64,000 nucleotides of DNA from Chloroflexota bacterium. GTDB lineage: Bacteria; Chloroflexota; Limnocylindria; Limnocylindrales; CSP1-4. Under the pieces are notes generated by a model that was not told where the DNA came from, made no database searches, and saw only the letters and a program-made list of their open reading frames with translations. Location of the stretch: contig JAHBUZ010000007.1 of NCBI GenBank assembly GCA_019637815.1, positions 62,001-126,000 of the forward strand, in the 5' to 3' direction. Numbering within the stretch: position 1 is the stretch's first letter; the number at the start of each line of letters is the position of its first letter. The translations under genes were made by a program, and so were the position numbers. Positions 27,533 to 49,829 of this stretch are shown one piece after another.

Positions 27533-29278
27533 TCACCCGAACATCGACTCGTCGAAGGAGATGCCGCCGGCCTCCTCCAGCTCGCCGCGCTGCGGCTGGT
27601 ACCAGTCGTCGAACGCGCTCGCCCGGACCTGGACCAGCTGCGTCGCGTCGAGTGGTCGGTCCGCGCGCTCGATGAGCTGGTACACATGCCAGCCGTCCTC
27701 GGTCTCGATGGGCTCGGTGACCCCACCCGGCTCCAGCGCGACGACCGCCGCCTGTGCCTCCAGGGGCACCTGGGCCTCCGTGCGCCAGCCGATGTCACCA
27801 CCGGTGGGTCCCTCAGCGCCATCGGACATCTCCATGGCGAGGGCGGCGAAGTCGACGTCCGGCTCGGCGAGCGCGGTCTCCAGGTCCGTGCGGCGCTGCG
27901 CGAGCGGTGGCTCGTAGTCCTCGAACCGGATGAGGTGATAGCCGAAGGCGGAGCGGACCGGGCCCACGATGTCACCCGGCTGGAGCGTGCCCAGGTTGTC
28001 GAACAGCGGATCGGCGAACTCGGGGACCATGCGGTCGCGATCGAACCAGCCCAGCTCGCCACCCGAGCTCGCGTTGCTCGTGTCCGCGCTGTGCTCTGCG
28101 GCGAGCCGCACGAAGGCGGCCTCGCGGGTCGCAGGGTCGGTGATGGCTGTCAGCTGGTTCGCGAGCAGGCCAGCCTGGGCAGCCGCGACCGTCCATGACG
28201 GATCATCATCCGGGAGGTCACCACCCGAGGCGAGGCCCGGGTCGTCCTCCGGCGAGATGAGGATGTGCGCGGCACGCACGCGACCGGAATCCGCATCCGG
28301 ATCCGACTGCGTGTCACCCGAGAGGAAGATCTCCGCGAGATGGACCTGCGGCTGGTCACCCGTGGTCGCGCTCGCCACGACGCTGTCCTCGAGCCGCTGC
28401 GCGATGGTCTCCATCCGGACGTTCTGACGGAACGCGTCCCATGACACGGGCAGGTCATCCTGGAACGTGGGGTCCATGACGGGTGGCTCGATGGCCGTGA
28501 GCCGCGCGATGAGGTAGGTGCCGTCCTCGTCCTGGAGGAGCGGCGTGTCCTGGCCTTCCGCCAGCCCGAACAGCGCGACCACGAGGGTCCGGTCGAGGGT
28601 CGCGTCATCGGCGGTGATGGTGCCGTAGTCGCCGTCCGGGGTGGCGGTGGTCACGGTGCCGTACTCGCGTGCCACGGTCGCGAAGTCCGTGCCGGCCGCG
28701 AGCGCGGCCTCGGCGGCACGCGCATCCGCGAGCGCCTGCTGGCGCCCGGTCGCGTCCTCGACCTCCGGGGCCACCTGGATGATGGAGACGCGCCGCATCT
28801 CGGGGCGCATGCTGGCCGCATCCACCGCGGCGTCCAGCTCCGCGTCGGAGATCGTGATGCCCTGCTCCGCTGCCAGCTGCCCCTGGTAGGTGAGATCCAC
28901 CAGCTCGAAGATGGCGTCCGACGCGTACGACTGCTGGGCCGTGGAGATCGCCTGGCGACGTGCCAACGCCTGGTCGCTGGTGAGATCACCGGCGGCGACC
29001 GACTCGGTCACCCGACGGTCCGCCCGATCGAGGCGGAAGCTCAGGAGTTGGGCACGGTCGACCCACTGGTCGCGCGAGATGGACGCGCCATTGACGGTGG
29101 CGACCGAGCGCAGGTGCTGGTCCCAGAACTGCCAGGCCACGCCGATGACGATGACCGCGACGACAGCGATGGTCAGGCCGATGAAGGCCATGGTGACGCG
29201 CCGCTGGAAGCGCTCCTCGGGATCGAGCGGCCGCCGCTGTGCGGACCCGCCGCCACGGGATCGAAGGTTGGACGTCAT
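27533..29278 (-). CDS. Membrane-anchored SurA/PpiD-like parvulin peptidyl-prolyl isomerase
   Basis: The 581-residue protein has a cytoplasmic basic N-terminus, one transmembrane helix (about residues 29-51) and a SurA_N-like chaperone region. A complete parvulin domain follows (AAHILI, GGELGWFDRDRMVPEF, FGYHLIRFED), then a second, shorter degenerate parvulin-like unit (GGDIGWRTEAQVP, DGWHVYQLIER). It should fold proteins outside the membrane. It lies divergently to the polysaccharide exporter genes, with a 244-nt spacer between the two starts. No other secretion gene adjoins it. Confidence 0.87.
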   Translation of the reverse strand: MTSNLRSRGGGSAQRRPLDPEERFQRRVTMAFIGLTIAVVAVIVIGVAWQFWDQHLRSVATVNGASISRDQWVDRAQLLSFRLDRADRRVTESVAAGDLTSDQALARRQAISTAQQSYASDAIFELVDLTYQGQLAAEQGITISDAELDAAVDAASMRPEMRRVSIIQVAPEVEDATGRQQALADARAAEAALAAGTDFATVAREYGTVTTATPDGDYGTITADDATLDRTLVVALFGLAEGQDTPLLQDEDGTYLIARLTAIEPPVMDPTFQDDLPVSWDAFRQNVRMETIAQRLEDSVVASATTGDQPQVHLAEIFLSGDTQSDPDADSGRVRAAHILISPEDDPGLASGGDLPDDDPSWTVAAAQAGLLANQLTAITDPATREAAFVRLAAEHSADTSNASSGGELGWFDRDRMVPEFADPLFDNLGTLQPGDIVGPVRSAFGYHLIRFEDYEPPLAQRRTDLETALAEPDVDFAALAMEMSDGAEGPTGGDIGWRTEAQVPLEAQAAVVALEPGGVTEPIETEDGWHVYQLIERADRPLDATQLVQVRASAFDDWYQPQRGELEEAGGISFDESMFG

Positions 29279-29522: not shown

Positions 29523-30452
29523 GTGGCGCCTCCCATGCAGATCGCATCCGACGCGCCCGCGACCTTCCGGAGCAGCGCGGACCGACCCGGGGCGATGGCA
29601 CTCCTCGTCACGGCGGTCCGCGAGGCCCTGTCGCGCCAGCGACTCATCCGCTACCTGGTGCGCGCGGAGATCAAGAAGAAGGGCACGGACACGGTCCTGG
29701 GCAACGTGTGGTGGGTCCTCGACCCGCTCGTGTCGCTGTCGGTGTACGTGTTCGTGTTCGGCACCGTGTTCGCGCGCAACCAGCAGGACTTCGCGGTGTT
29801 CCTGATCGCGGCCATGATCCCCTTCAAGTGGTTCACGGGCACGCTCTCGGACGCGGTCTCCTCGGTGACCGCGAACGGGTCGCTCATCAAGCAGATCCAG
29901 TTCCCCAAGATCGTGCTGCCGCTCGTGGTCAACGGGTCGGGCCTCATGAACCTGCTGGTCGGCTTCGGGGTGCTCCTCGGGTTCGTGATCGTGCTCTACC
30001 CGGCGCACCTGAGCACGATGCTCCTGCTGTTCCCGGTCATCGCGATCATCCAGGGCGTGATGATGCTGGGCTTCTCGTTCTTCCTCGCTGCGGCGACCGT
30101 GTTCTATCGGGACGTGGGCATCGTCATCGGGCACCTGCTGCGCCTGCTGTTCTACGTGGCGCCCATCCTGTGGAGCTTCGAGGCGGCCGGTGGGCGTGGC
30201 TCGCTCATCCGCAACGCGGTCGGTGACGAGTTCTTCACGATCCTGCGCTACAACCCCGTGGCGGTCCTGCTGGAGACGTTCCGGACCATCACGTACGGGG
30301 TGCCGCTACCGGACGGCGGCTGGCGACACGCCACGCTGGCGGACCTCGAGTGGGTCGGGCTCGGCGCGGTGCTCCTCATGTCCATCGCGATCCTGGTGCT
30401 GGGCACCATCTTCTTCAAACGGCTCGAGCCGCAGTTCGCGAAGGTGCTCTGA
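29523..30452 (+). CDS. Polysaccharide ABC exporter permease (Wzm/TagG-type)
   Basis: The 309-residue protein has a cytoplasmic N-terminus with LIRYLVRAEIKKKGTDTVLG, then six hydrophobic segments typical of the ABC2 polysaccharide exporters, including VFVFGTVFARNQQDFAVFL and PILWSFEAAGG. The GTG at 29523 is about 12 nt after a G-run resembling a ribosome binding site; an ATG at 29535 is the alternative. The ATPase gene starts on its last base (TGATG). It probably exports the glycan built by the enzymes encoded downstream. Confidence 0.87.
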   Translation: MAPPMQIASDAPATFRSSADRPGAMALLVTAVREALSRQRLIRYLVRAEIKKKGTDTVLGNVWWVLDPLVSLSVYVFVFGTVFARNQQDFAVFLIAAMIPFKWFTGTLSDAVSSVTANGSLIKQIQFPKIVLPLVVNGSGLMNLLVGFGVLLGFVIVLYPAHLSTMLLLFPVIAIIQGVMMLGFSFFLAAATVFYRDVGIVIGHLLRLLFYVAPILWSFEAAGGRGSLIRNAVGDEFFTILRYNPVAVLLETFRTITYGVPLPDGGWRHATLADLEWVGLGAVLLMSIAILVLGTIFFKRLEPQFAKVL

Positions 30453-31420
30453 TGAGCCAGGGCATCACGGACGCCCCGAGCGCGCCGCTCGTCGATCCGG
30501 ACACCGACCAGAGCATCACGGACGTCGAGCCCGTGGCGATCGCCCGACCCATCGACGAGACCGCGCCGCCGGCCCTCGCGGTCCGGGAGCTGGGCGTCCA
30601 GTACAACCTCCGCTTCGGCAAGAACACCCGGATGCGCACCAGCTTCCGGAACGCGCTCCGACGCGAGCAGAGCGACCGGACGTTCTGGGCCCTCCGCAAC
30701 GCGACCTTCACGGTGCACCGGGGTGAGTCCGTCGGCGTCATCGGGCCCAACGGTGCCGGCAAGAGCACCCTGCTGCTGGTGCTGGCGGGGATCATCACCC
30801 CCTCGGAGGGCGTGGTGGAGGTCAACGGCCACATCTCGACGCTGCTGAGCCTCCAGGCCGGCTTCGACCAGGACCTGTCGGGGCTGGACAACATCGCGCT
30901 CGCCGGGGCGCTCATGGGCATCCCCCACGACACGATGCAGCGCATCACGCCGGACGTCATCGAGTTCGCGGACCTGGGCAAGTTCATCGACGCCCCGCTC
31001 AAGACCTACAGCTCTGGCATGCGCGCGCGACTGGGCTTCTCCATCGCGACCGCCGTCGACCCGGACATCCTGCTCCTCGACGAGGTCCTCCAGACCGGGG
31101 ACGAGGTGTTCCGCGAGAAGAGCCGACAGCGCATCATCTCGGTGCTCCAGGCAGCCAAGGCCGTGGTCCTCGTGACCCATGACATGACCTGGGTGACGGA
31201 GTTCTGCACCCGCGCGCTGCTCATCGAGGATGGCCGCGTGGCGCTCGACGGCGCCCCCGAGGAGGTGGTGCGCGTCCACCGCGAGCATTCGCAGGCGCGC
31301 CGGGCCGCACGGCGGGAGGCCATCGACCGGATGCGACGCGGGGAGATCGCCATCGACGCCGCGGACCTGCGCCGGCTCGAGGAGCCCAAGGGCAGGGGGA
31401 GCCGGCGGAGCGCCGAGTGA
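30452..31420 (+). CDS. Polysaccharide ABC exporter ATPase (Wzt/TagH-type)
   Basis: The 322-residue protein has Walker A GPNGAGKST (98-106), signature YSSGMRARLGFSIA and Walker B DILLLDEVL, with the VRELGVQYNLRF start typical of the O-antigen/teichoic acid exporter subfamily. It has an extra N-terminal stretch of about 40 residues. It lacks the long C-terminal carbohydrate-binding domain of Wzt from E. coli O9a, so chain-length coupling is probably different. The ATG at 30452 shares a base with the permease stop. Open frame further upstream only shadows the permease. Confidence 0.87.
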   Translation: MSQGITDAPSAPLVDPDTDQSITDVEPVAIARPIDETAPPALAVRELGVQYNLRFGKNTRMRTSFRNALRREQSDRTFWALRNATFTVHRGESVGVIGPNGAGKSTLLLVLAGIITPSEGVVEVNGHISTLLSLQAGFDQDLSGLDNIALAGALMGIPHDTMQRITPDVIEFADLGKFIDAPLKTYSSGMRARLGFSIATAVDPDILLLDEVLQTGDEVFREKSRQRIISVLQAAKAVVLVTHDMTWVTEFCTRALLIEDGRVALDGAPEEVVRVHREHSQARRAARREAIDRMRRGEIAIDAADLRRLEEPKGRGSRRSAE

Positions 31421-32556: not shown

Positions 32557-33666
32557 TCAGCCCCGGAGTCGTGCGGCCAGGATGGCCGCGATGCGCTCCC
32601 CGGCGTGGCCATCCCAGAGCGGCGGCCCCTCCGCCGGCCCTGCCAGCTCCCCGCGGAGTGCCGCATCGACCATCGGGCCCAGTGCCTCCGGCTCGACCAG
32701 CCGGTTGGTGCCGTGCGTGATGGTCACGGGCCGCTCGGTGTTCGGCCGCAGCGTGAGGCACGGGATGCGCAGCACCGTCGTCTCCTCCTGGATGCCGCCG
32801 CTGTCGGTGACCACGACGGCCGCACCACGCACCAGCGACAGGAACTCCAGGTAGCCGAGCGGCTCGATGACCGCGATGCCCGCCACCTCGCGCAGCCCGG
32901 CCGCCTCGAGACGTCCCCGACCCCGCGGATGGAGCGGCAGCACGACCGGCAACCGCGCGGCGAGCTCCCGGAGCGCGGCGACGAGGCGACCCGCAGCCTC
33001 CGGCGTGTCCACGTTCGCCGGCCGGTGGAGCGTCGCCACGGCGTAGCGCTCGGGCACGCCCAGCCGCTCGCGCACCGGACCCGGATCGAATCGGTCGAGA
33101 TGGCGCAGCAGCGTGTCGATCATGGGATTGCCCACCATCTCGATGCGTGCCGGATCCACACCCTCGGCCCGGAGATGGTCGACCCCCTCCGGGCTGGTCA
33201 CGAACAGGAGGTCCGCGACCACGTCGGTCAGTCGCCGATTGACCTCCTCGGGCATCGTCACATCGAAGCTGCGCAGGCCCGCTTCCACGTGCGCGACGGG
33301 GATGAGCAGCTTGGCGCACACGAGCGCGGCGGCGAGCGTGGAGTTGACGTCGCCGTAGACCACGACCCACGCGGGCGGGCGGGCCACGAACTCGTCCTCG
33401 AGCGCCGCGAGCAGCGCCCCGGTCTGGTGGCCATGGCTCCCCGAGCCCACACCCAGACTGACATCAGGCGCGGGCAGGCCCAGGTCGCGGAAGAAGACGT
33501 CCGACAGCAGCGGGTCGTAGTGCTGGCCGGTGTGGACCAGCCACTGGGGCACCTCCAGCGCCGCCAGGGCGTCGATGACCGGCGCTGCCTTGATGAAGTT
33601 CGGTCGGGCGCCCACGACGTGGACCACCCGGCCGGCCGTCGCGGTGGTCGCTGCCGGGCCGGTCAT
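32557..33666 (-). CDS. wecB: UDP-N-acetylglucosamine 2-epimerase (non-hydrolysing)
   Basis: The 369-residue protein has GARPNFIKAAPVIDAL near the N-terminus, VYGDVNSTLAAALVCAKL, HVEAGLRSFD and DSGGIQEET, all diagnostic of the UDP-GlcNAc to UDP-ManNAc epimerases. I use the ATG at 33666; a GTG at 33711 would add 15 residues. It is encoded on the minus strand opposite the preceding transferase, with the large glycosyltransferase gene just upstream. With the UDP-sugar dehydrogenase at 35903 it would make UDP-ManNAcA. Confidence 0.88.
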   Translation of the reverse strand: MTGPAATTATAGRVVHVVGARPNFIKAAPVIDALAALEVPQWLVHTGQHYDPLLSDVFFRDLGLPAPDVSLGVGSGSHGHQTGALLAALEDEFVARPPAWVVVYGDVNSTLAAALVCAKLLIPVAHVEAGLRSFDVTMPEEVNRRLTDVVADLLFVTSPEGVDHLRAEGVDPARIEMVGNPMIDTLLRHLDRFDPGPVRERLGVPERYAVATLHRPANVDTPEAAGRLVAALRELAARLPVVLPLHPRGRGRLEAAGLREVAGIAVIEPLGYLEFLSLVRGAAVVVTDSGGIQEETTVLRIPCLTLRPNTERPVTITHGTNRLVEPEALGPMVDAALRGELAGPAEGPPLWDGHAGERIAAILAARLRG

Positions 33667-33720
33667 GCCGCCCACGGACCCATGCCCGTCCCCGATGTCA
33701 TGCCACTCCACTCCCAGGCT

Positions 33721-35902: not shown

Positions 35903-37186
35903 GTGAGACGGATCGGGATCATCGGCATGGGCTACGTGGGCCTGCCCCTCGCCACGGCATTCGTGGACGCCGGCGAGGACGTCCTGGGCATCGACATCGA
36001 CCCGCGCAAGGTCGAGGCCCTGGACGCGGGCCGTACGTGGATCGAGGACGTCACCTCGGACGAGCTGGCGGCCGCGGTGGCGACCGGCCGGTTGCGCATA
36101 GCCACGACCCCGGAGGGCCTCGCGGACCGTGACGCGGTCATCGTGTGCCTGCCGACCCCCATCGACGAGCATCGCAACCCGGACCTGCGACCGGTCCTGT
36201 CGGGCGTGGAGGCGGCCATCCCGCATCTCGCCCCGGGCGCGTTGCTCGTCCTCGAGTCGACCACCTGGCCGGGCACCACGCGCGAGGTCATCGCGCCGCT
36301 CCTGGAGCAGGCGGGCCACCGCATCGGTGAGGACGTGTTCCTTGCCTTCTCCCCGGAGCGCGTCGACCCCGGCAATGCCCGGTACGGCATCCGGAACACG
36401 CCCAAGGTGGTCGGCGGCATGACGGCCGAGTGCACCCGCCGCGCGGCAGAGCTCTACGCCACGATCTGCGAGACGGTCAAGGTGGTCTCCTCGCCCGAGA
36501 GCGCGGAGATGGCCAAGATCGTCGAGAACACGTTCCGGGCCGTCAACATCGCGCTCGTCAACGAGATGGCCATCCTCGCGGACCGGATGGGCGTCGACAT
36601 CTGGGAGACCATCGACGCGGCATCCACCAAGCCGTTCGGCTTCATGCCCTTCTGGCCCGGGCCCGGGCTGGGGGGTCACTGCATCCCCGTCGACCCGTTC
36701 TACCTGACGTGGCGCGCCAAGGCCTATGACCTCGACACCGAGTTCGTGGAGCTGGCCGGCCGCATCAACTCCAACATGCCCTACTACGCGGTCAGCCGCG
36801 TCGTGCGCGCCCTCAATGGCGTGGCCAAGCCGCTGCGTGGGTCGCGGGTGCTGCTCCTGGGCATGGCCTACAAGGGCAACGTCGGGGACCTGCGGGAGAG
36901 CCCGTCGCTCAAGCTCGTGGAGCTGCTCCGTCGGGATGGCGCGATCGTGGAGTACCACGACCCCCACGTGGCCTGGGTGAACGGCCTGGACATGGCGTCC
37001 GTGCCGCTCACGGACGAGACGCTCGCGGCCGCGGACGTGGTGGTCCTCGCGACCCACCATCGCGCCGTGGACCTGGCACACGTGGTGCAGCACGCGCGTC
37101 TCCTCGTGGACCTCCGCAACGCCGTCCGCCAGACGCTCAACGGTGAGCCGGGCGGGCCCGTGCCGGACAACGTGGAGGTCCTCTGA
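35903..37186 (+). CDS. wecC: UDP-N-acetylmannosamine-type nucleotide sugar dehydrogenase
   Basis: The 427-residue protein has the NAD motif GMGYVG (8-13), the catalytic Cys260 in GLGGHCIPVDPFYLTW and a C-terminal UDP-binding domain with RVLLLGMAYKGNVGDLRESPS. The length and the HCIPVDPFYLTW context fit UDP-ManNAc or UDP-GlcNAc 6-dehydrogenases (WecC/WbpA) more than UDP-glucose dehydrogenase. The GTG at 35903 is chosen because homology starts there. It pairs logically with the epimerase at 32557, although the two are divergently placed around a transferase. Confidence 0.85.
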   Translation: MRRIGIIGMGYVGLPLATAFVDAGEDVLGIDIDPRKVEALDAGRTWIEDVTSDELAAAVATGRLRIATTPEGLADRDAVIVCLPTPIDEHRNPDLRPVLSGVEAAIPHLAPGALLVLESTTWPGTTREVIAPLLEQAGHRIGEDVFLAFSPERVDPGNARYGIRNTPKVVGGMTAECTRRAAELYATICETVKVVSSPESAEMAKIVENTFRAVNIALVNEMAILADRMGVDIWETIDAASTKPFGFMPFWPGPGLGGHCIPVDPFYLTWRAKAYDLDTEFVELAGRINSNMPYYAVSRVVRALNGVAKPLRGSRVLLLGMAYKGNVGDLRESPSLKLVELLRRDGAIVEYHDPHVAWVNGLDMASVPLTDETLAAADVVVLATHHRAVDLAHVVQHARLLVDLRNAVRQTLNGEPGGPVPDNVEVL

Positions 37187-37237: not shown

Positions 37238-38248
37238 ATGAGCACCCGCCGGACCGTCTGGATCGACCTCACCAACTCGCCCCACGTCCTGTTCTTCCGA
37301 CCCATCCTCCGGCGGCTCGACGCGGCGGGCGTGCCGAGCGTGGTCACCGCCCGCGACTTCGCGCAGACCCTGGGGCTGCTGGAGCTCTACCGCATCCCGC
37401 ACACCGTCATCGGGCGGCATGGCGGAGCGGCGGTGGGCGGCAAGGTGGTGGGTCTCGCCCGGCGATCGCTCGCCCTGACCCGGTTCGGTCGGTCGCGGCG
37501 GGACATCGGTCAGGCGGTCAGCCATGGCTCGAACGACCTCGCGGTGGCGGCCCGCCTGCTGCGCATCCACAGCACCGTGCTCCATGACTTCGAGGGCGCC
37601 ACCACGATGCACCGGATCAACTTCCGGCTCGTGGACAAGGTCATGGTGCCCGAGGTCATCCCCTGGTCGGCGCTCCAGGCGCTGGGTCTCCAGGAACGAC
37701 GCTATCGGCCCTATCCGGGCATCAAGGAGCAGGTCACCCTGGCCGACTTCGAGCCGGACCCCACCGTGGTCGACCAGCTGGGTCTCGACCCCGCCCGGCC
37801 CATCGCGGTGCTGCGTCCCCCCGCGACGATGAGCCTGTATCACCGGGGCATCGAGAACACCCTGTTCGATGACGTGCTCGCGCATCTCCGGGCATCGGAC
37901 GCCCAGGTGGTCCTGCTCCCCCGCACGCCCGAGCAGGCGCGCACGTTCGCGGGGGCGGATGGCGTGACCATCCCCGCGACGCCGGTGGATGGTCCGTCCC
38001 TGGTGTACGCCGCGGATCTCGTGGTGAGCGCAGGCGGCACCATGAACCGCGAGGCAGCACTCCTCGGGACCCCCACCTGGACCACCTTCGCCGGGGAGCT
38101 GGGTGCCGTGGACCGGATGCTCATCGAGACGGGTCGCATGGACATCCTGGAGCGACCGGACCAGCTCGTCATCGCGAAACGACGCATCGATGCGCCCGGC
38201 CACGAGGCGCTCGCGGACGCCGTGACCCGCGAGATCCTCGCCCGCTGA
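37238..38248 (+). CDS. DUF354 family GT-B-fold protein
   Basis: The 336-residue protein begins with RRTVWIDLTNSPHVLFFRPIL, a DUF354 signature, and has LHDFEGATTMHRINF and a C-terminal SAGGTMNREAALLGTPTW loop resembling the donor site of nucleotide-sugar enzymes. DUF354 members are found in exopolysaccharide clusters, and their reaction is not established; an epimerase-like or transferase role has been suggested from fold. It lies between the sugar dehydrogenase and the transferase array on the same strand. Confidence 0.8.
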   Translation: MSTRRTVWIDLTNSPHVLFFRPILRRLDAAGVPSVVTARDFAQTLGLLELYRIPHTVIGRHGGAAVGGKVVGLARRSLALTRFGRSRRDIGQAVSHGSNDLAVAARLLRIHSTVLHDFEGATTMHRINFRLVDKVMVPEVIPWSALQALGLQERRYRPYPGIKEQVTLADFEPDPTVVDQLGLDPARPIAVLRPPATMSLYHRGIENTLFDDVLAHLRASDAQVVLLPRTPEQARTFAGADGVTIPATPVDGPSLVYAADLVVSAGGTMNREAALLGTPTWTTFAGELGAVDRMLIETGRMDILERPDQLVIAKRRIDAPGHEALADAVTREILAR

Positions 38249-38276
38249 TCGCGTGGCGGACGTCGGGCAGCCACCC

Positions 38277-39590
38277 ATGACCACACGCCGGCGGCGCCCC
38301 GCACGCGTGGGCATCGTGCTGCACCGCTCGGGCGAGTTCGACTCCCGGAGCCAGCGGCTGGCCGCGTCCCTGGCAGCACGCGGCGACACCGTCACGCTGT
38401 ACTCGTTCCGCGAGCCCGGACTCCCCGAGACCGAGGAGCGCGACGGCTACCGCATCGTCCGCGTGCCGGGACCACTCGATGACGGCGCCGAGGCATCGCC
38501 GGGGGCGACCGACGAGGAGCGGGACGCGTCACCGACCTCCCGGGGCCTGCTGGGCGCCCCGCGTCAGGTGCTCCGGAGCATCGGGCAGCGCCTGCGACGC
38601 CGGCTCCGCCGATGGCCCCCGACGCGCCGGTTCCTGTTCTTCCCGATCCGACCGGTCCGCTGGTCGCGTGGGCTGCCGGACCTGGTGGAGCCGCACGACA
38701 TCTGGCACGGCATGTGGGCGGGGTCGTTGCCCGCGCTCGCCCGGTTGCGTGCTCGTCACGGCGGGCGGACGGTGTACGACGCACGCGACATCTATCTCCG
38801 GTCCCGCCAGTTCGAGCACGCGCCGGGCTGGCAGCGACGGCTGCTCAGCCGCCTGGAGCGGCACTGGGCGCATGCCGCGGACGCCGTGGTCTCCGTCTCT
38901 CCCGAGTACGCCGCCGAGCTGCGCACCGAGCTCGGCCTCCGGGACATCGCGGTGGTCCGCAACTGCCCCGAACGCTGGGTCCCGCCCGAGCCGCGGCCGG
39001 ACCGCATCCGGGCGCTGCTGAGCCTGCCTCCGAGCACCCGCATCGTGCTGTACCAGGGGTTGCTCATGAGCGACCGGGGCATCGAGCAGACGATGGACGC
39101 CATCCTCGAGGTGCCGGACGCGGTGCTGGTGCTCATGGGCACGGGCCACCCCAGGCGCTATCACCGGGCCGCGGCGCGGGCGCCGCACGCCGGCCGGGTG
39201 CACGTCATCGACCCGGTGCCACCCCGGGAGCTGCTGGGCTGGACCGCATCGGCCGATGTCACGGTGATGGCCATCCAGCCGACCAGCCTCAACCATGAGC
39301 TGACCACGCCCCAGAAGCTGTGGGAGTCGATGGCGGCCGGCGTGCCCGTGGTGGCCAGCGACCTGCCGGGGATGGCGGGCATCGTGCGGGAGACGGGTTG
39401 CGGGGAGCTGTGCGACCCGACCTCACCGAGCTCCATCGCGGATGCCATCCGACGTGTCCTGGACCAGCCCGGTGGCCCTCGCCGGATGGGTGACCTGGGG
39501 CTCGCGGCCGCACATGACCGGTATCATTGGGCCGCCCAGCTGGAGGTCCTGGACGTCGTGTATGCCAGGCTGCTGGAGAGGCATCCGTGA
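38277..39590 (+). CDS. Tandem glycosyltransferase 1 (GT4-like)
   Basis: This is the first of five adjacent paralogs (437 residues). Shared landmarks are GEFDSRSQRLAASLAARGD at the N-terminus, EPHDIWHGMWAGSLPALARL, YDARDIYLRSR, then a donor domain with IVLYQGLLMSDRGIEQTMDAI, VIDPVPPRELLGW and TTPQKLWESMAAGVPVVASD. Its donor domain differs from copies 3-5 (TVMAIQPTSLNHE versus VMVMCYQPNSENHA). The ATG at 38277 matches the short leader of its paralogs; a GTG at 38253 is possible. It ends in a GTGA overlap with copy 2. Confidence 0.83.
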   Translation: MTTRRRRPARVGIVLHRSGEFDSRSQRLAASLAARGDTVTLYSFREPGLPETEERDGYRIVRVPGPLDDGAEASPGATDEERDASPTSRGLLGAPRQVLRSIGQRLRRRLRRWPPTRRFLFFPIRPVRWSRGLPDLVEPHDIWHGMWAGSLPALARLRARHGGRTVYDARDIYLRSRQFEHAPGWQRRLLSRLERHWAHAADAVVSVSPEYAAELRTELGLRDIAVVRNCPERWVPPEPRPDRIRALLSLPPSTRIVLYQGLLMSDRGIEQTMDAILEVPDAVLVLMGTGHPRRYHRAAARAPHAGRVHVIDPVPPRELLGWTASADVTVMAIQPTSLNHELTTPQKLWESMAAGVPVVASDLPGMAGIVRETGCGELCDPTSPSSIADAIRRVLDQPGGPRRMGDLGLAAAHDRYHWAAQLEVLDVVYARLLERHP

Positions 39591-40981
39591 ACCAGCCCGA
39601 GCGCGGCCGTCCATCGGCGCGCATCGCCATCCTGTCCCACGGCACCAGCGAGTTCGATTCGCGTGCCCAGCGCATCGCCCGGACCTGCACCGCGGCCGGT
39701 GACACGGTGACGCTCTACTCGCGCTTCCTCGCCGGGCTGCCGCGGGAGGAGGAGCGCGACGGATATCGCATCGTGCGGCTGCCCCTGAGCGACGATGACC
39801 AGCGGGCCGCCGACCGCGAGGCACGACGAGCCGCCGCCGGAGCCGATGCATCGAGGGCCAGCGCGGACGCCCCGGCGCGCGCTGCCACGCCAGCCACGCC
39901 GAGCACGGCTCGACGCATCATCAGCGCCCTGCCCACGGGCACATTGCTGCGTCACCGGTTCCGGCAGTTCCCCATCCGGCCGCTCCAGCGGGCCCCCTGG
40001 TTCGCACGCCAGGTGGAGCCCCACGACATCTGGCACGGCATGTGGGCCGGGTCCCTGCCAGCGCTGGAGCAGGTCCGCGCGAGGCACGGCGGCCGGACGG
40101 TGTATGACGCGCGGGACGTGTTCCTGCGCTCGCGGATGTTCGATGACATGCCCCGCTGGCAGCGCACCATCCTCACCCGGTACGAGCGGCGCTGGGCGCA
40201 CGCCGCCGACGCGGTGCTCCAGGTGTCCGAGGAATACGCCGGGATGACGGCCCGTGACCTCTCGCTCGAGCGCGTGGAGGTCGTCCGCAACTGTCCCGAG
40301 CGCTGGGACCCGCCGAGCCCGCGCCCGGACCGGTTCCGGGAGCTCCTGGGCCTCCCGTCGACCACCCGCATCGTGCTCTACCAGGGGCGGGTGATGGGCG
40401 ACCGGGGCATCGAGCAGGCGATGGACGCCATCCTCGAGGTGCCGGATGCGGTGCTCGTGATCATGGGCTTCGGCAACCAGAACGGGGACCAGTCCTCGCG
40501 GGACCCGTTCATCGCGAAGACGACGGTCGCACCGTGGCAGGGCAGGGTGTTCGTCGTCGACCCGGTGCCACCCGCCGAGCTGCTGCCATGGAGCGCGTCC
40601 GCGGACGTGATGGTCATGGCCGTGCAGCCGCGCTCGGAGAACCATCGCTACATGACCCCCCAGAAGCTGTGGGAGGCGCTCGCGGCGGGGGTGCCGGTGG
40701 TCGCCGCGGACATGCCCGGGTTCCGCAACATCGTCGGCTCGGTGGGCTGTGGCGTGCTGGTGGACCCCACGTCGCCCGCGGACATCGGGCGCGGCATCCG
40801 GGACCTCCTGGACCTGGGGCCGGACGGGCTGCGAGCCGTCGGTGACCTGGGGCTCGCGGCCGCGCACGACCGATACAACTGGGAGGTCCAGGCGGAGGTG
40901 CTCGAGGGTGTCTATGCGCGGCTGCTCGCGATGGACGGTCGCCGATCCGCTGCCGATCCGACGCCCGAGCCCGCCGCATGA
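39587..40981 (+). CDS. Tandem glycosyltransferase 2 (GT4-like)
   Basis: The 464-residue paralog has TSEFDSRAQRIARTC, EPHDIWHGMWAGSLPALEQV, YDARDVFLRSRMFDDM, VLYQGRVMGDRGIEQAMDAI and a donor end with RYMTPQKLWEALAAGVPVVAAD. An Ala/Thr-rich insertion (about residues 80-110) separates the first strands from the rest, a region that varies in every copy. It starts with GTG in a GTGA overlap and ends in an ATGA overlap with copy 3. Confidence 0.85.
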   Translation: MNQPERGRPSARIAILSHGTSEFDSRAQRIARTCTAAGDTVTLYSRFLAGLPREEERDGYRIVRLPLSDDDQRAADREARRAAAGADASRASADAPARAATPATPSTARRIISALPTGTLLRHRFRQFPIRPLQRAPWFARQVEPHDIWHGMWAGSLPALEQVRARHGGRTVYDARDVFLRSRMFDDMPRWQRTILTRYERRWAHAADAVLQVSEEYAGMTARDLSLERVEVVRNCPERWDPPSPRPDRFRELLGLPSTTRIVLYQGRVMGDRGIEQAMDAILEVPDAVLVIMGFGNQNGDQSSRDPFIAKTTVAPWQGRVFVVDPVPPAELLPWSASADVMVMAVQPRSENHRYMTPQKLWEALAAGVPVVAADMPGFRNIVGSVGCGVLVDPTSPADIGRGIRDLLDLGPDGLRAVGDLGLAAAHDRYNWEVQAEVLEGVYARLLAMDGRRSAADPTPEPAA

Positions 40982-42302
40982 CGCGCATCGGCATCCTGTC
41001 CCCCGGCACCAGCGAGTTCGACTCGCGTGCACAGCGCATCGCGCGCACGCTCGCGGCGCGGGGTGACGAGGTGACCATCTACTCCCGTCTCGCCGCAGGC
41101 CTGGCCGCGGAGGAGCAGCTGGACGGCTATCGCATCGTGCGCATCCCGCTCGATGACGAGGCGCTCGCCGATGGTCGGTCGCAGGGTGCCCGGCGGCCAC
41201 GGTCCCTGGTCGGTCGGGTCCGCTGGGCGCTGTCGATCGTGGGCTACCGGGTGCGTGCCCTGCTGGAGCGACTGCCCACCGTCCGACGGCTCGAGCGCTT
41301 CCCGTTGGAGCCGATCCAGGTCGCGCGCCGGTTCGAGGCGTCCGTGCGGGTGGAGCCCCACGATGTCTGGCATGGCATGTGGGCGATCTCGCTGCCCACC
41401 CTCGAACGGGTCCGGCGGCGACATGGCGGCGTGACCCTGTACGACCCGCGTGATGTCTATCTCCGGTCCCGCAGCTTCGATGCGATGCCCCGCTGGGAAC
41501 GCTGGCTGATGACCCGCTTCGAGCGACGCTGGGCGCGCCAGGCCGATGCGGTCATCCAGGTGTCCGAGCCATACGCCGAGATGACGGCACGCGACCTGGG
41601 GCTCGGCTCGCTGCCCATCGTGCGCAACACCCCCGACCGATGGGACCCACCGGTGCCCCGGCCGGACCGGTTCCGCGAGACGCTCGGGCTGACGGCGGAA
41701 ACCCGCATCGTGCTCTACCAGGGTCTGCTCATCGCCGACCGGGGCATCGAGCAGGCGATGGACGCGATCCTCGAGGTGCCGGACGCGGTGCTGGTGCTGA
41801 TGGGGCCGGATGACCATCGCGGAGGCTCGCGCCGCCAGGCACGCTTCCGTGACCGGGCTGCCCGTCCCCCCTATGCCGGCCGCGTCCACGTCATCGACCC
41901 GGTGCCACCCGGGAGCTGCTCGGCTGGTCGGCCTCGGCGGACGTGATGGTCATGTGCTACCAGCCCAACAGCGAGAACCATGCCTACGTGACCCCCCAGA
42001 AGCTGTGGGAGGCGATGGCGGCGGGGGTGCCCGTGGTGGCGTCCGACCTGCCCGGGTTCCGCTCGGTCGTGCCCGGTGCGGGCTGCGGGGTGCTCGTCGA
42101 CCCGACCGACCCGGCGGCCATCGCGGCGGGCATCACGGAGCTGCTCGACCGGGGTCCCGAGGGTCTCCGGGCGACCGGTGAGCGGGGTCGTGCGGCGGCC
42201 CATGCCACCTACAACTGGGAGGAGCAGATGCGGGTGCTCGACGGGGTGTACGGGCGCCTGCTGGCGGGGCGGGGGGCGACGCGTGAGGGCGGCCCTGCAT
42301 GA
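40978..42302 (+). pseudogene. Tandem glycosyltransferase 3, frameshifted
   Basis: Translation from 40978 matches the family up to VHVIDPVPPG, then runs out of frame and stops at 41946. The missing C-terminal part continues in another frame to 42302. The cause is visible: the G-run in the CCACCCGGGAGCTG segment at 41906-41914 has three Gs where the matching place in copy 5 has four. If that one base is restored, a full protein of about 441 residues results. The loss may be real or a consensus error in a repeated region. Confidence 0.8.
41858..42275 (+). repeat. Near-identical 3' segment, copy in glycosyltransferase 3
   Basis: From the GCTGCCCGTCCCCCC block to the CTGGCGGGGCGGGG block this stretch matches the ends of copies 4 and 5 apart from the lost G and a few substitutions. 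It encodes the donor-binding half of the enzyme. Confidence 0.85.
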
Positions 42303-43683
42303 CGGAGCCCACGGGACCGCGGCCGGACGCCATCGACTGGTCGCCGGTCGACCGGCCCAGCGCGCGCATCGGGATCCTGTCCCCCGGCACCAGCGAGTTC
42401 GACTCCCGGGCGCATCGCATCGCACGCACGCTCGCGGCCCGGGGTGACACGGTGACCGTCTATTCCCCGGCGACTGCGACCCGGCCTCGCATCGCTCGAG
42501 GAGCTCGACGGATACCGGGTGGTGCGCATCCCGCTGTCCCGCTCGGACATCACGGCGAGCCAGGGTCCGCGGTCCGCGCTGGGGCGGACCTCCGGGGTGG
42601 TGCGCGCCGTTCACTGCCCGGTCGGATCCGGGCCGGTGTCGTGCGGGTGCTGCGTCGCGCCCACACCGTGTGGCTGCGGGTCAGCGACCGCGTCCCGGCG
42701 ATCCATCGCTTCCGGATCTTCCCGCAGCGGCCCCTCGAGTGGGCGGGCTGGTTCGAGCGGGGCGTCGAGCCCCACGACCTGTGGCACGGCATGTGGGCAC
42801 CATCCCTGCCCGCGCTGGAGCGCGTCCGTCGACGCCACGGCGGCGTGACCCTGTACGACCCGCGGGACGTCTATCTCCGCTCGCGCATCTTCGCGCCCAT
42901 GGGTGCCTGGCAGCGACGCATCCTCACCCGGCTCGAGTCCCGCTGGGCCCACCGGGCCGATGCGGTCATCCAGGTGTCCGAGCCCTATGCCGAGATGACG
43001 GCACGTGACCTGGGCCTCGGCACGCTCCCCGTGGTCCGGAACACCCCCGACCGATGGGACCCACCGGTGCCCCGGCCGGATCGGTTCCGGAGACCCTGGG
43101 CCTTCCCCCGACCACCCGCGTGGTCCTGTACCAGGGACTCCTGGTGAACGACCGGGGCATCGAGCAGTCGATGGACGCCATCCTGGCCATCCCCGATGCC
43201 GTCCTCGTGGTCATGGGCTTCGGCCAGCACGAGGAGCGGGTCCGGGCGACCGCTGCCCGTCCCCCCTATGCCGGCCGCGTCCACGTCATCGACCCGGTGC
43301 CACCGGGGGAGCTGCTCGGCTGGTCGGCCTCGGCGGACGTGATGGTCATGTGCTACCAGCCCAACAGCGAGAACCATGCCTACGTGACCCCCCAGAAGCT
43401 GTGGGAGGCGATGGCGGCGGGGGTGCCCGTGGTGGCGTCCGACCTGCCCGGGTTCCGCTCGGTCGTGCCCGGTGCGGGCTGCGGGGTGCTCGTCGACCCG
43501 ACCGACCCGGCGGCCATCGCGGCGGGCATCACGGAGCTGCTCGACCGGGGTCCCGAGGGGCTCCGGGCGACCGGTGAGCGGGGTCGTGCGGCGGCCCATG
43601 CCACCTACAACTGGGAGGAGCAGATGCGGGTGCTCGACGGGGTGTACGGGCGCCTGCTGGCGGGGCGGGGAGGGCGGTCGTGA
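42299..43683 (+). pseudogene. Tandem glycosyltransferase 4, multiple frameshifts
   Basis: The gene begins with ATG in an ATGA overlap and reads TSEFDSRAHRIARTL normally. The frame is lost near 42466 (extra C in the TTCCCCGG run), regained near 42600-42620, and lost again near 43088, where CGGTTCCGGAGACC lacks a base relative to copy 3. Between the shifts the family motifs EPHDLWHGMWAPSLPALERV, YDPRDVYLRSR and the whole donor domain are intact in alternate frames. Corrected length is about 460 residues. As it stands it cannot make a full enzyme. Confidence 0.8.
43253..43669 (+). repeat. Near-identical 3' segment, copy in glycosyltransferase 4
   Basis: This matches 41858-42275 except for the G-run indel and very few substitutions, for example GAGGGG for GAGGGT near 43556. 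Confidence 0.85.
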
Positions 43684-45083
43684 CCGAGCCGGTGGCGGCC
43701 GGCCAGCGGTCGAGCGTCGACCGGCCCAGTGCGCGCATCGGGATCATCAGCCAGGGGACGAGCGAGTTCGATTCGCGCACGGTCCGGATCGCCCGGACGT
43801 GTGCGGCACGCGGCGACACGGTGACGGTGTATGCCCGCCATGCGGAGGGTCTGCCGGCGGAGGAGCACGTCGACGGCTATCGCATCGTGCGCGTCGCGCT
43901 CAACCGCGCCGACCAGAAGAAGGCACGCGCCCGCGCATCCGGCAGGGCCACGAGCGGGCGACGCACCGGGCAGACCCGATCGCGTGGCCCAGTGGCACGC
44001 GTCGTCGCCCGGGGCTCGGCCATCGCGAGGCGGCTCGTCGGACGGGTCACGGCGGTCATCGGGTCCGTCCTCGAGCACACCGAGACCTGGCGACGGTTCC
44101 AGCGGTTCCCCATCCGGCCCGTCGGCTGGGCGCGCTGGTACGAGGCCCAGGTGGAGCCGCACGACATCTGGCACGGCATGTGGGCCGGGTCGCTGCCGAC
44201 CATCGACCGGCTCCGGCGACGACTCGGCGGCGCGACCGTGTATGACACTCGGGACGTGTACCTCCGCTCGCGCGGCTTCGATGGCATGCCCCGCTGGCAG
44301 CGCTGGGCGCTCACGCGGATCGAGTCCCGCTGGGCGCGACGACAGGGCGCCGTCCTCCAGGTATCCGAGCCATATGCGGAGATGACGGCGCGGGACCTGG
44401 GCCTGCGTGACGTGCCGGTGGTCCGCAACTGCCCCGACCGATGGGACCCGCCCGACCCCCGACCCGACCGCATCCGCGAGACCCTGGGGCTGTCGCCCGC
44501 CACGCGGGTGGTCCTCTATCAGGGGATGCTGCTGAGCGGTCGCGGCATCGAGCAGTCGATGGACGCCATCCTCCAGGTGCCGGACGCGGTGCTGGTGCTC
44601 ATGGGCTTCGTGGACCACACCGGGCGAGCCAAGGAGAGCGCCTTCCATGGGCAGACTCGGAGCGCGCCCTACGCCGGCCGCGTCCACGTCATCGACCCGG
44701 TGCCACCCGGGGAGCTGCTCGGCTGGTCGGCCTCGGCGGACGTGATGGTCATGTGCTACCAGCCCAACAGCGAGAACCATGCCTACGTGACCCCCCAGAA
44801 GCTGTGGGAGGCGATGGCGGCGGGGGTGCCCGTGGTGGCGTCCGACCTGCCCGGGTTCCGCTCGGTCGTGCCCGGTGCGGGCTGCGGGGTGCTCGTCGAC
44901 CCGACCGACCCGGCGGCCATCGCGGCGGGCATCACGGAGCTGCTCGACCGGGGTCCCGAGGGTCTCCGGGCGACCGGTGAGCGGGGTCGTGCGGCGGCCC
45001 ATGCCACCTACAACTGGGAGGAGCAGATGCGGGTGCTCGACGGGGTCTACGGGCGCCTGCTGGCGGGGCGGGGAGGGAGCTGA
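43680..45083 (+). CDS. Tandem glycosyltransferase 5 (GT4-like)
   Basis: The intact 467-residue last paralog starts with GTG in a GTGA overlap. It has TSEFDSRTVRIARTCAARGD, a basic variable linker (about residues 80-125), EPHDIWHGMWAGSLPTIDRL, YDTRDVYLRSRGFDGM, VLYQGMLLSGRGIEQSMDAI and the donor domain shared with copies 3 and 4 (VMVMCYQPNSENHAYV, PQKLWEAMAAGVPVVASD). The N-terminal half is clearly different from copies 3 and 4, so it may use a different acceptor with the same donor sugar. Confidence 0.85.
   Translation: MTEPVAAGQRSSVDRPSARIGIISQGTSEFDSRTVRIARTCAARGDTVTVYARHAEGLPAEEHVDGYRIVRVALNRADQKKARARASGRATSGRRTGQTRSRGPVARVVARGSAIARRLVGRVTAVIGSVLEHTETWRRFQRFPIRPVGWARWYEAQVEPHDIWHGMWAGSLPTIDRLRRRLGGATVYDTRDVYLRSRGFDGMPRWQRWALTRIESRWARRQGAVLQVSEPYAEMTARDLGLRDVPVVRNCPDRWDPPDPRPDRIRETLGLSPATRVVLYQGMLLSGRGIEQSMDAILQVPDAVLVLMGFVDHTGRAKESAFHGQTRSAPYAGRVHVIDPVPPGELLGWSASADVMVMCYQPNSENHAYVTPQKLWEAMAAGVPVVASDLPGFRSVVPGAGCGVLVDPTDPAAIAAGITELLDRGPEGLRATGERGRAAAHATYNWEEQMRVLDGVYGRLLAGRGGS
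44663..45072 (+). repeat. Near-identical 3' segment, copy in glycosyltransferase 5
   Basis: Identity to the segments in copies 3 and 4 starts at the GCCGGCCGCGTCCACG block and runs to GGCGGGGCGGGG, with only a few differences such as GGGGTC for GGGGTG near 45046. Confidence 0.85.
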
Positions 45084-46444: not shown

Positions 46445-47107
46445 TCAGGCCGGGACGATCGTGTCCAGGGTCTCGGGCAGCAGCGTCAGGTCGGTCAGGC
46501 GTGCCGCGACGGGAACGGTCGCCACCTCCGCCTCGCGGTCGATCCAGACGCAGGGGATGCCCAGCAGCGCACACGGCTCCGCGTCGTGGAACAACGACGC
46601 TGCGACGTGGACATGCCGCGACCGTGGCACGCCGGTCTCGCGGAAGAACGCCTCCCAGTGGCCAGGTGCCGGCTTGTACGAGCCGATCTTGGACGCGACC
46701 ACCCGCAGATCCACGGGCACGCCGATGTGCTCGAGGGATGCCTCCAGATAGTCCGGATCCGTGTTGGACAGGATGGCGAGCTTCCAGCCGCGTGCCCGGA
46801 GCTCCGCGAGCGCGGCGGACACCTCGGGGAACGCCGGCCATGACGGCAGCGCGTCGGCGAGCGTGGTCTCACTGCCCGGCGGCAGCTCCAGGCCTGCCTC
46901 GGCGGCGAGTCGCACGAGCCCATCGGTGAGCACCTGTCGATACGGGGTCCCGACACCGGCCTGGAGCGAGGCCTCGATGTCCAGATATCGGCGGTGGAGC
47001 GCGCCCACATCCGCATCCGGCCAGAGCGACGCGATCCCGGCCCGCAGACCCCCGTGCCAGTCGATGAGCGTGCCATAGCAGTCGAACGTGGCCCAGCGGT
47101 CGGTCAC
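46445..47107 (-). CDS. HAD-superfamily hydrolase (haloacid-dehalogenase type II-like)
   Basis: The 220-residue protein has motif I FDCYGTLIDW with nucleophile Asp9, motif II ILSNTD, motif III Lys in KIGSYKPAPGHW and motif IV HVAASLFHDAEP. This set is that of type II dehalogenase-like phosphatases. It starts with GTG in a GTGA overlap with the upstream transferase stop, so it is coupled to the sugar-transferase pair. It could be a sugar-phosphate phosphatase, but the substrate cannot be derived. Confidence 0.85.
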   Translation of the reverse strand: MTDRWATFDCYGTLIDWHGGLRAGIASLWPDADVGALHRRYLDIEASLQAGVGTPYRQVLTDGLVRLAAEAGLELPPGSETTLADALPSWPAFPEVSAALAELRARGWKLAILSNTDPDYLEASLEHIGVPVDLRVVASKIGSYKPAPGHWEAFFRETGVPRSRHVHVAASLFHDAEPCALLGIPCVWIDREAEVATVPVAARLTDLTLLPETLDTIVPA

Positions 47108-48447
47108 AGCGCGTCCCCTCGCAGCACCAGGTCGCGGTACAGGTCGAGCAGCACGGGCGCCTGGTGCTCCCATGCGTACACGTCGCGGGCAGCGGTCAGG
47201 CACGCCTCGCGGTAGGCAGCGCGTCGCTCGGGCGACGCATCGAGGATGGTCCGGATGGCCCGCGCGATGTCCGCCGGGTCCATCGGGTCGCACAGCTCGC
47301 CACAGCCCGTGTCCCGGACGATGGGTGCCATGCCGGGCAGGTCGCTCGCGACCACGGGCACACCGGCGCCCATGGCATCGAACAGCTTGGTGGGCGTGTT
47401 CAGCTGGTGGTTGAGGGTGTCACCCTCGACGGGCATCGCGGAGATGTCCGCGGTCGCGATGGCGGCCGGGATGTCCGCCGGCACGACGGGACCCGGGAAG
47501 TGGATCCGGTCGGCGTGGGGCAGGGTCGCGGCGCGCTCCCGGAAACGCTCGTAGTCGGCGCCCAGGCCGGCCACCACGAGCACCGCGTCATCCACGAGGC
47601 CGATGGCATCACACAGCTGCGCGATGCCCCGGCCATCCAGCACGAGCCCGAGATACAGCACCACGCGGGTGCCCGGCGCGAGACCGAGCCGCTCGTGCCA
47701 GATGGGCCGCGCCTCGGCGACCGGCTCGTGGTCCGGACCGTTCCACGCGATGCGTGGCTGACGTCCCCAGTCCTGCGCCAGCACCTCGGCGTAGGGCGTG
47801 CTCACGGTGAGCAGCCCGTCCATGGAGCGGGCCCAGTCACGCTCGCGTCGCTGGAGGAGCGCCCGCCATGGGCCGGGCAGCCGTGCGAACCGGGCGCTCT
47901 GCGTCGCCAGGTCGCGCGCGTCGTAGACACCCAGGCCACCGCGCGTGGCACGCAGCCGTACGGCGACCGGGAGCGCCACGAGGCCCTCCGCCTGCCACAC
48001 GTCGATGGGCTCGGCGGGATCGCGGCCGGGGAGCGCCGGGGCGTGGTCGATGGCCTGGCCGATCGCATCGGCCCAGGCGCGCGAGAGTCGAAGGTATCGC
48101 AGCGCTTGGGCGCCTCGACCGAGCGTGGCGGCGGTGATCAGCCGGGCCTGTGCCACGGGCCCCGGAGCGGACGCCCTTCCGGCCGCCGCCTCCGCCTCGC
48201 CAGCGGGCAGTCTCGGGCTCGGCAGCCACGCCAGTGGCTGGGGTTGCACGACCCGCAGGACGCGGAAGCCATCCACCTGCTCGTACGCCGGCAGACCCGG
48301 TGCGGTCCGCGCGACGACCGTGACGGCGTAGCCCGCGTCCGTCAGGGTGTGGGCCATCTTCCAGACCCGGGAATCGGTCTGGAAGGGGTTGTTGACGAGC
48401 AGCGCGGTAGTGCGGACCACGGCCCGCGACGCAGGACGCCGACTCAC
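47104..48447 (-). CDS. GT4-like glycosyltransferase 6
   Basis: The 447-residue protein is a distant relative of the tandem array: NPFQTDSRVWKMAHTLTDAGY, YDARDLATQSARF, VVLYLGLVLDGRGIAQLCDAI, and NTPTKLFDAMGAGVPVVASDLPGM broken at its donor loop. It starts with GTG in a GTGA overlap with transferase 7 and ends overlapping the HAD gene. The three minus-strand genes converge on the plus-strand array around the kelch gene. Sugar specificity unknown. Confidence 0.84.
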   Translation of the reverse strand: MSRRPASRAVVRTTALLVNNPFQTDSRVWKMAHTLTDAGYAVTVVARTAPGLPAYEQVDGFRVLRVVQPQPLAWLPSPRLPAGEAEAAAGRASAPGPVAQARLITAATLGRGAQALRYLRLSRAWADAIGQAIDHAPALPGRDPAEPIDVWQAEGLVALPVAVRLRATRGGLGVYDARDLATQSARFARLPGPWRALLQRRERDWARSMDGLLTVSTPYAEVLAQDWGRQPRIAWNGPDHEPVAEARPIWHERLGLAPGTRVVLYLGLVLDGRGIAQLCDAIGLVDDAVLVVAGLGADYERFRERAATLPHADRIHFPGPVVPADIPAAIATADISAMPVEGDTLNHQLNTPTKLFDAMGAGVPVVASDLPGMAPIVRDTGCGELCDPMDPADIARAIRTILDASPERRAAYREACLTAARDVYAWEHQAPVLLDLYRDLVLRGDAL

Positions 48448-49829
48448 CGTGGGGCGGCGCCTGGGGGCGGACGGTCCCGCGATGCGGCCTCACGCTGTGC
48501 GGACCGCCCCCCAGCGATGTCCCGGTACAGCCCGGTGAGTCCCGCCACGTTGCGCTCCCAGCTGTAGCGCTCGAGCGCGGCGGTCCGACAGCGCTGTCGC
48601 AGCGCCTCCTGTTCGACACGCGGCGCGCCCAGGATCCGGGCAAGGCCATCCGCGATGGCTGACGGCGAGTCGATATCGACACACACGCCGACCTGTTCCG
48701 CGCTCGTGAGCCGGCACTGCTCGTTGTCCGCGGAGACGACCACGGGCACGCCCGCCATGAGGCTCTCGAACAGCTTGTTGGGCAGGTTGTAGCGCTGGTT
48801 GAGCGTCCGCGGTGGCTGGCCCACGAAGGTCACGTCCGCGCTCGCGGTCCACGGCAGCAGCTCGTCCGGTGGCACGGGGGGCAGCACGATCACGCGGTCG
48901 GGGGTCGCCGCGGCGCGCTCCCGCAGGAACGCCTCGAGCCGCCCGAAGCCCATGAACACCGCGACCGCCCGGAGGTCTCGCAGCACCGGCTCGTCGAGCG
49001 CCGTGACCAGCTCCTCGATACCCCGGTCCACGCTGTAGCCACCCTGGTAGAGGATCACCGGTCGATCGCCGTCGATGCTCGCCGTCCGGTGCACGAGGTC
49101 CGAGGGCACCGGACCGGGTGTCTCGGGGTGCCACGCGGGCGGGCAGTTCATGAGGATGACCGGCGGCGCGATCCCCCAGCGCTGCTGGACGAGCCGCGCG
49201 ATGGGCTCACTGACCGCGAGCGTGCCGGCAGCATCGCGCGCCCAGTCCCGTTCGCGACGTCTGACCAGCTCCCGGACCACGCCCGGCATCCGCGCAAGGC
49301 GAGCGGCTTCGGTGTGGTAGTCGGCGACGTCATAGACGAACGCGCCACCCAGCCGCCTCGCGGCCTCCCGGACGACCGGGAGCACGATGAGCGCCTTGGC
49401 GTGGAACACCTCGGTCTCGGGTGCCGCAGCGACGACCGCATCCGCCCATGGCCCGACGCGACGGGCGTTCGCGACCACCTCCAGCAGGCGGCGCACCGGG
49501 TGGCGCAGCCGGTCGATGCCGCGTGGCGGCTCCGGGGAGAGCAGCACCGCCTCCGGATCGAGGCCCAGGACCCGGCAGATGACGCGTCGGATCCCGCCGG
49601 GGAGTGGACGCAGGGCGCTGGAGATGCGCCGATCGAGCGTGATGCGGGTCAGCCGCAGGCCGCCGGGCAGCACCTCCTCGGTCGGCAGGTCGGGACCCGA
49701 CCAGGCGAGGATGCGGACGTGATGACCATCCGCCGCCAGCGTGCCCGCGGTGCGCAGCTGCCGCGAGTCGAACTGGAACGTGTTGGCCACGACGAGCGTG
49801 ACATGGAGCCCGTGATCAGCGTCGGCCAC
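48444..49829 (-). CDS. GT4-like glycosyltransferase 7
   Basis: The 461-residue protein has ANTFQFDSRQLRTAGTLAADG, YDVADYHTEAARLARMPG, ILYQGGYSVDRGIEELVTAL, PPVPPDELLPWTASADVTF and NLPNKLFESLMAGVPVVVS. It belongs to the same broad family as the tandem copies but is more divergent. It starts with GTG, overlapping the preceding hypothetical gene by 14 nt. The C-terminal 20 residues are Pro/Arg-rich and probably disordered. Confidence 0.84.
   Translation of the reverse strand: MADADHGLHVTLVVANTFQFDSRQLRTAGTLAADGHHVRILAWSGPDLPTEEVLPGGLRLTRITLDRRISSALRPLPGGIRRVICRVLGLDPEAVLLSPEPPRGIDRLRHPVRRLLEVVANARRVGPWADAVVAAAPETEVFHAKALIVLPVVREAARRLGGAFVYDVADYHTEAARLARMPGVVRELVRRRERDWARDAAGTLAVSEPIARLVQQRWGIAPPVILMNCPPAWHPETPGPVPSDLVHRTASIDGDRPVILYQGGYSVDRGIEELVTALDEPVLRDLRAVAVFMGFGRLEAFLRERAAATPDRVIVLPPVPPDELLPWTASADVTFVGQPPRTLNQRYNLPNKLFESLMAGVPVVVSADNEQCRLTSAEQVGVCVDIDSPSAIADGLARILGAPRVEQEALRQRCRTAALERYSWERNVAGLTGLYRDIAGGRSAQREAASRDRPPPGAAPR

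Follow-up and report, generated by a model that had tools for sequence, protein, structure and literature searches.

The question raised by this locus is how a run of tandem glycosyltransferase genes came to combine divergent front parts with, in three of its copies, almost identical 3′ ends. In the window (the whole stretch of 64,000 nucleotides of Chloroflexota DNA that was analysed), five homologous GT4-type glycosyltransferase genes follow one another on the plus strand at 38277-45083, all in register; a sequence-only reading had described a tandem array of five glycosyltransferases. The copies are as follows.

38277-39590, plus strand: copy 1 (c1), intact GT4-type glycosyltransferase, with an alternative GTG start at 38253 (ORF, Pfam)
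39587-40981, plus strand: copy 2 (c2), intact, starting in the GTGA over the c1 stop (ORF)
40978-42302, plus strand: copy 3 (c3), broken (ORF, frame analysis)
42299-43683, plus strand: copy 4 (c4), broken (ORF, frame analysis)
43680-45083, plus strand: copy 5 (c5), intact, 467 amino acids (ORF, Pfam, AF2 model)

Successive starts are spaced about 1.33-1.41 kb apart, and a 4-bp overlap joins each copy to its successor (GTGA at 39587, ATGA at 40978, ATGA at 42299 and GTGA at 43680). Because the start of every copy sits within the stop codon of the preceding one, the array forms a single translationally coupled run. The intact copies c2 and c5 share 62% amino acid identity.

The array lies among the following genes of the neighbourhood, which also contains a family 2 glycosyltransferase gene.

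29523-31420, plus strand: polysaccharide ABC exporter pair, a Wzm-like permease and a Wzt-like ATPase (best matches are galactan/teichoic acid exporters, below curated cut-offs)
32557-33711, minus strand: UDP-GlcNAc 2-epimerase, WecB (TIGR00236 above cut-off)
35903-37186, plus strand: nucleotide-sugar dehydrogenase, upstream of the DUF354 gene and the array (TIGR03026 above cut-off)
37238-38248, plus strand: DUF354 (PF04007) gene, directly 5′ of the array (Pfam; 82% identical in the same-genus genome G001)
47104-48447, minus strand: sixth family member (m6), 39% amino acid identity to c5 (ORF, Pfam, tree; orthologue in G001)
48444-49829, minus strand: seventh family member (m7), 34% amino acid identity to c5 (ORF, Pfam, tree; orthologue in G001)

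The Wzm/Wzt-like exporter, WecB, the dehydrogenase, the family 2 glycosyltransferase and m6 and m7 together point to a surface-polysaccharide locus. A change in surface glycan brought about by the array would be speculative, and plausible only from this gene context. Upstream of the polysaccharide locus, the minus strand encodes a SurA-like PPIC rotamase protein with three matched stretches (27536-29278).

The assignment of the copies to the GT4 type was derived from profile and structure searches. Pfam domains PF00534 and PF13692 (glycosyltransferase group 1) scored above their curated cut-offs in c1, c5, m6 and m7, and PF13439 and PF13579 did so in c1. PF13439, the N-terminal GT4 domain, gave 50.0 bits in c1 and 20.1 of the required 28.5 bits in c5, where it is below cut-off. 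The AF2 model of c5 (mean pLDDT 77) has two Rossmann-like domains in a GT-B fold, and a Foldseek search with it returned MshA 3c4q as the best PDB match (probability 1.00, E 5.6e-19, TM 0.65/0.76) along with other GT4 enzymes. Compared to the GT4 enzymes MshA, BshA, PimA and WaaG, the array copies have the same fold and the Pfam group 1 domains, but the sequence identity is only about 17%. In the alignment, the second Glu of the EX7E-type motif is found as KLWE in c1, c2 and c5 and as KLFD in m6, and the first Glu is off the canonical spacing. No NCBIfam equivalog scored above its curated cut-off, the best being TIGR04063 with 68 bits of the 442 needed.

Copies c3, c4 and c5 are about 99% identical across their final 400-419 bp or so and far more divergent elsewhere, in agreement with the earlier description of near identity over the last 0.4 kb. 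The tracts, delimited by silent-site and boundary comparison, are as follows.

41857-42274, plus strand: tail tract in c3 (common with c5 from 41875)
43252-43670, plus strand: tail tract in c4 (common with c5 from 43270)
44673 to about 45073-45076, plus strand: tail tract in c5, residues about 332-465 (also placed on the AF2 model)

The edges of the tract are sharp. Its 5′ start lies at 41857 and 43252 in c3 and c4, and its 3′ edge is the gene end; the stretch common to c3 and c4 is about 18 bp longer on the 5′ side than that which either shares with c5, where the tract begins at 44673. Within it, c3 (41857-42274) differs from c4 (43252-43670) by a substitution and a lost base at about 41910 and a substitution at 42164, c3 (41875-42274) differs from c5 (44673-45073) by one lost base and one substitution, and c4 and c5 are separated by three substitutions. 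Thus, each copy carries private substitutions, which indicates that the tracts are not a single sequence pasted three times. The sequences linking each tail to the following start also differ between copies. When the genome itself and 106 other genomes of the family were searched, the 405-bp tract showed at most 76% identity to anything else.

The earlier reading had equated this tract with the donor-binding half of the enzyme, which is right as to the domain and too broad as to the extent. In the c5 model, the C-terminal domain starts near residue 265 and the tract near residue 332, just ahead of the strand at 335-338, and it continues to residue 465. It takes in the stretch from KLWE to GVPVV but does not reach back to the first strand and glycine loop at 280-289. 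The tract therefore makes up only some two thirds of the donor domain, and the initial 65 or so residues of that domain diverge as much as the rest of the protein.

Silent sites provided the most direct evidence on how the tails became alike. The copies were aligned codon by codon, the broken ones piecewise, and dS was calculated by the Nei-Gojobori method. For the pairs c3-c4, c3-c5 and c4-c5, respectively, dS was 0.55, 0.91 and 0.84 in the N-terminal part (first 75 residues), 0.92, 1.07 and 0.77 in the linker, 0.60, 0.79 and 0.77 in the late N domain, and 1.72, 0.74 and 0.85 in the early C domain, whereas in the tail it fell to 0.02, 0.02 and 0.03 with dN = 0. Synonymous divergence is therefore not equal in the two halves: it falls from 0.55-1.7 ahead of the tract to 0.02-0.03 within, a difference of about 30-fold. 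The longest runs of silent-site identity in the three tail pairs extend over 30-44 codons, a length reached in none of 5000 permutations. Copies c1 and c2 retain tails of their own. Between 42 and 52% of silent sites differ when these two tails are compared with each other or with the c3-c5 tails, and tail dS in pairs with c1 or c2 (0.62-0.87) is like that elsewhere. Beyond the c3-c5 tails, the run test found no significant converted tract among the array copies; residues 296-309 of the c1-c5 pair gave p = 0.012, which is not significant after ten comparisons. The proposal of recent gene conversion or recombination among c3-c5 is thus borne out by the silent divergence, the run test and the sharp boundaries.

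Trees and related genomes place these events in one lineage. Copies c1-c5 form one clade in the tree of the N part and in that of the tail, and c3, c4 and c5 are closest to one another in both, with near-zero branches in the tail tree only. The groups nearest to the clade comprise members in four other genomes (L070, L071, L072 and L040). The same-genus genome G001 contains no member of the clade. It keeps the m6 and m7 orthologues (L102, 12118-14729) and the flanking locus, and unrelated genes adjoin the DUF354 and m6 orthologues at both junctions. These observations suggested that the array is a lineage-specific expansion, or that it was lost in G001. The DUF354 orthologue of G001 likewise adjoins WecB and the dehydrogenase. 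Family arrays of two to four genes are common in related genomes, several of which also have exporter, WecB and dehydrogenase genes next to the array. Across 26 loci of relatives, 54 within-array pairs were compared and no homogenised tail was seen, the highest tail identity being 79%. A lineage-specific tandem pair in genome G017 (L041, 4250-6969) has 66-83% amino acid identity in its conserved regions and 52% in the linker, with no homogenised tail. A scan of genome contigs returned two distant Chloroflexi loci only, which in itself makes that phylum the most likely source of the window.

Collectively, these results are probably best explained by duplication of the copies, divergence over their whole length, later copying of a 3′ tract among c3-c5 and loss of frame in c3 and c4. 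First, one GT4-type gene in the surface-polysaccharide locus would have been duplicated repeatedly in the lineage to yield five coupled copies, which then diverged over their whole length before any tail was transferred; duplication and divergence of the predicted copies are shown by the anatomy and the trees. Second, and much later, a 3′ tract of about 0.4 kb would have moved between c3, c4 and c5 by homologous, non-reciprocal recombination that left the fronts untouched, and the evidence for this putative tail transfer is strong. There are two 5′ boundaries, one nested in the other, which points to at least two conversion events, their number and direction being inferred. Third, c3 and c4 would have lost their reading frames. 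Gene conversion is the simplest reading of the homogenised tails: unequal crossing over alone was rejected, as it would have copied the front parts along with the tails, and a non-reciprocal transfer of the tails is therefore simpler.

An unlikely alternative is that one gene was recently triplicated and that its front two thirds were then replaced by divergent alleles of other strains, the tail being the remainder. Such a course would yield the same mosaic. In Helicobacter pylori, tandem glycosyltransferases recombine their n and c modules separately (PMC6892558), and the fronts of the array copies differ most in the linker (dN about 0.9). However, it would require at least two separate imports at nearly one breakpoint, and the c1-c5 fronts are mutually closest in the tree, none of them grouping with a front from another genome.

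Even less probable is an assembly artefact, in which a repeat would have been collapsed to give the tails and consensus errors in a poorly resolved region would have produced the frameshifts. The frame breaks bear directly on this reading. Copy c3 is one base short, at about 41910, in a C/G run at about 41908-41911 relative to c5, which leads to an early stop and a product of 322 amino acids. Copy c4 has three breaks, near 42468, about 42605 and at 43088, and its first-frame product stops at 282 amino acids. These four single-base changes, within 41905-41911 and 42466-43088, were identified by eye; the sequence-only reading had not mentioned them. For a background, a coding-frame model was applied in both orientations to sampled stretches of the same genome (about 400 kb). 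Eight frame changes were called over the 401 kb of coding sequence covered, two in c3 and c4 (2.7 kb) and six in the other 399 kb or so (L054 about 1061, L055 about 5659, L059 about 12025, L060 about 8171, L061 about 9177 and L065 about 9582). By this rate c3 and c4 together should contain about 0.04, and frame breaks are about 50 times rarer in the rest of the sampled genome. The breaks are thus special to c3 and c4, which either became pseudogenes recently or contain local sequence errors. Their concentration in two repeat-bearing copies, with one inside the tract, would suit an artefact, as would the state of the source genome, a draft in 61 contigs that is 87% complete. On the other hand, three of the four breaks lie in non-repeated sequence, and only that of c3, 35-53 bp past the 5′ edge, is within the tract. 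Furthermore, a collapse might lift identity from 97% to 99% but not from about 70% to 99%, and, together with the private substitutions and the differing junctions to the next start, this led us to regard the homogenisation as real. The frameshifts of c3 and c4 may still be sequence errors.

There is very little probability that c3 and c4 act like the silent cassettes of pilin or vlsE systems and keep feeding sequence into an expressed copy. The tract is indeed common to two broken copies and an intact one beside them, but it is the conserved tail and not the variable part, which is the reverse of an antigenic-variation cassette; moreover, every copy is of full length and part of the coupled run, the c3-c5 tails are the only significant converted tract, and nothing alike was seen in related genomes. 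Strong constraint on the donor domain without recombination is hardly credible and was rejected. In this family the tail does tend to be more conserved than the body (by 7.6 points on average in relatives), but here the silent sites are identical too (dS 0.02) while those of the c1 and c2 tails differ.

Copies c3 and c4 are probably without function, as neither would make a full enzyme, and the working enzymes at present are probably three, namely c1, c2 and c5. The dN/dS of about 0.2 in the late N domain of the c3 and c4 fronts suggests that any loss of function would be recent. Users of the annotation should be cautioned that two of the five array enzymes are probably non-functional. The exchanged tract spans most of the donor-sugar domain, so that the exchange would tend to keep donor use. 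The earlier proposal that one donor sugar is kept while the acceptors change is weakly grounded, because two of the three homogenised copies are frameshifted, c5 being the sole intact copy with such a tail, and c1 and c2 keep their own tails. With c3 and c4 frameshifted, selection for one donor across several working enzymes is not readable from the tails. It is very unlikely that the array represents a bacterial design of variable acceptors and a constant donor, in which recurrent conversion keeps the donor module, the fronts diversify and copies broken for a time serve as a reservoir for further conversion.

Compared to known systems, the array shares its main features with tandem glycosyltransferase genes of H. 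pylori. At the JHP0562/JHP0563 (HP0619) locus, tandem genes swap their N- and C-terminal modules, and a frameshift that recombination left between the n and c modules inactivates most hybrids (PMC6892558). Both cases combine adjoining homologous glycosyltransferases, a surface-glycan pathway, separate recombination of the N and C parts, and frameshifts. The likeness is one of organisation: at the H. pylori locus each strain carries one or two of three genes, as seen across 177 strains with known Lewis antigens, whereas the array comprises five copies, three of them with a common tail, in a single draft genome. The HP1105 alleles of H. pylori are also tandem paralogues in which one half is conserved and the other divergent, but there it is the amino-terminal half that is conserved and the carboxy-terminal half that varies, and hybrids are rare (PMC6892558). 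The vertebrate UGT1 cluster similarly has tandem variable acceptor parts and one constant donor part, and its authors did not find gene conversion to be predominant (PMC1885805). Unlike the array, which consists of separate complete bacterial genes, UGT1 splices variable first exons to shared exons. A literature search for gene conversion or concerted evolution in bacterial glycosyltransferases turned up no closer case than that of H. pylori, whose module shuffling with frameshifts appears to be a very close precedent. By itself, the array demonstrates no new mechanism. Given the H. pylori and UGT1 parallels, it belongs to an already known kind of system and is mostly an instance of ordinary gene-family recombination in a surface-sugar cluster. 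If real, it would offer a clear example, from a little-studied group of Chloroflexota, of tandem genes for surface-glycan enzymes that have undergone partial gene conversion, alongside a published parallel that comes from a pathogen.
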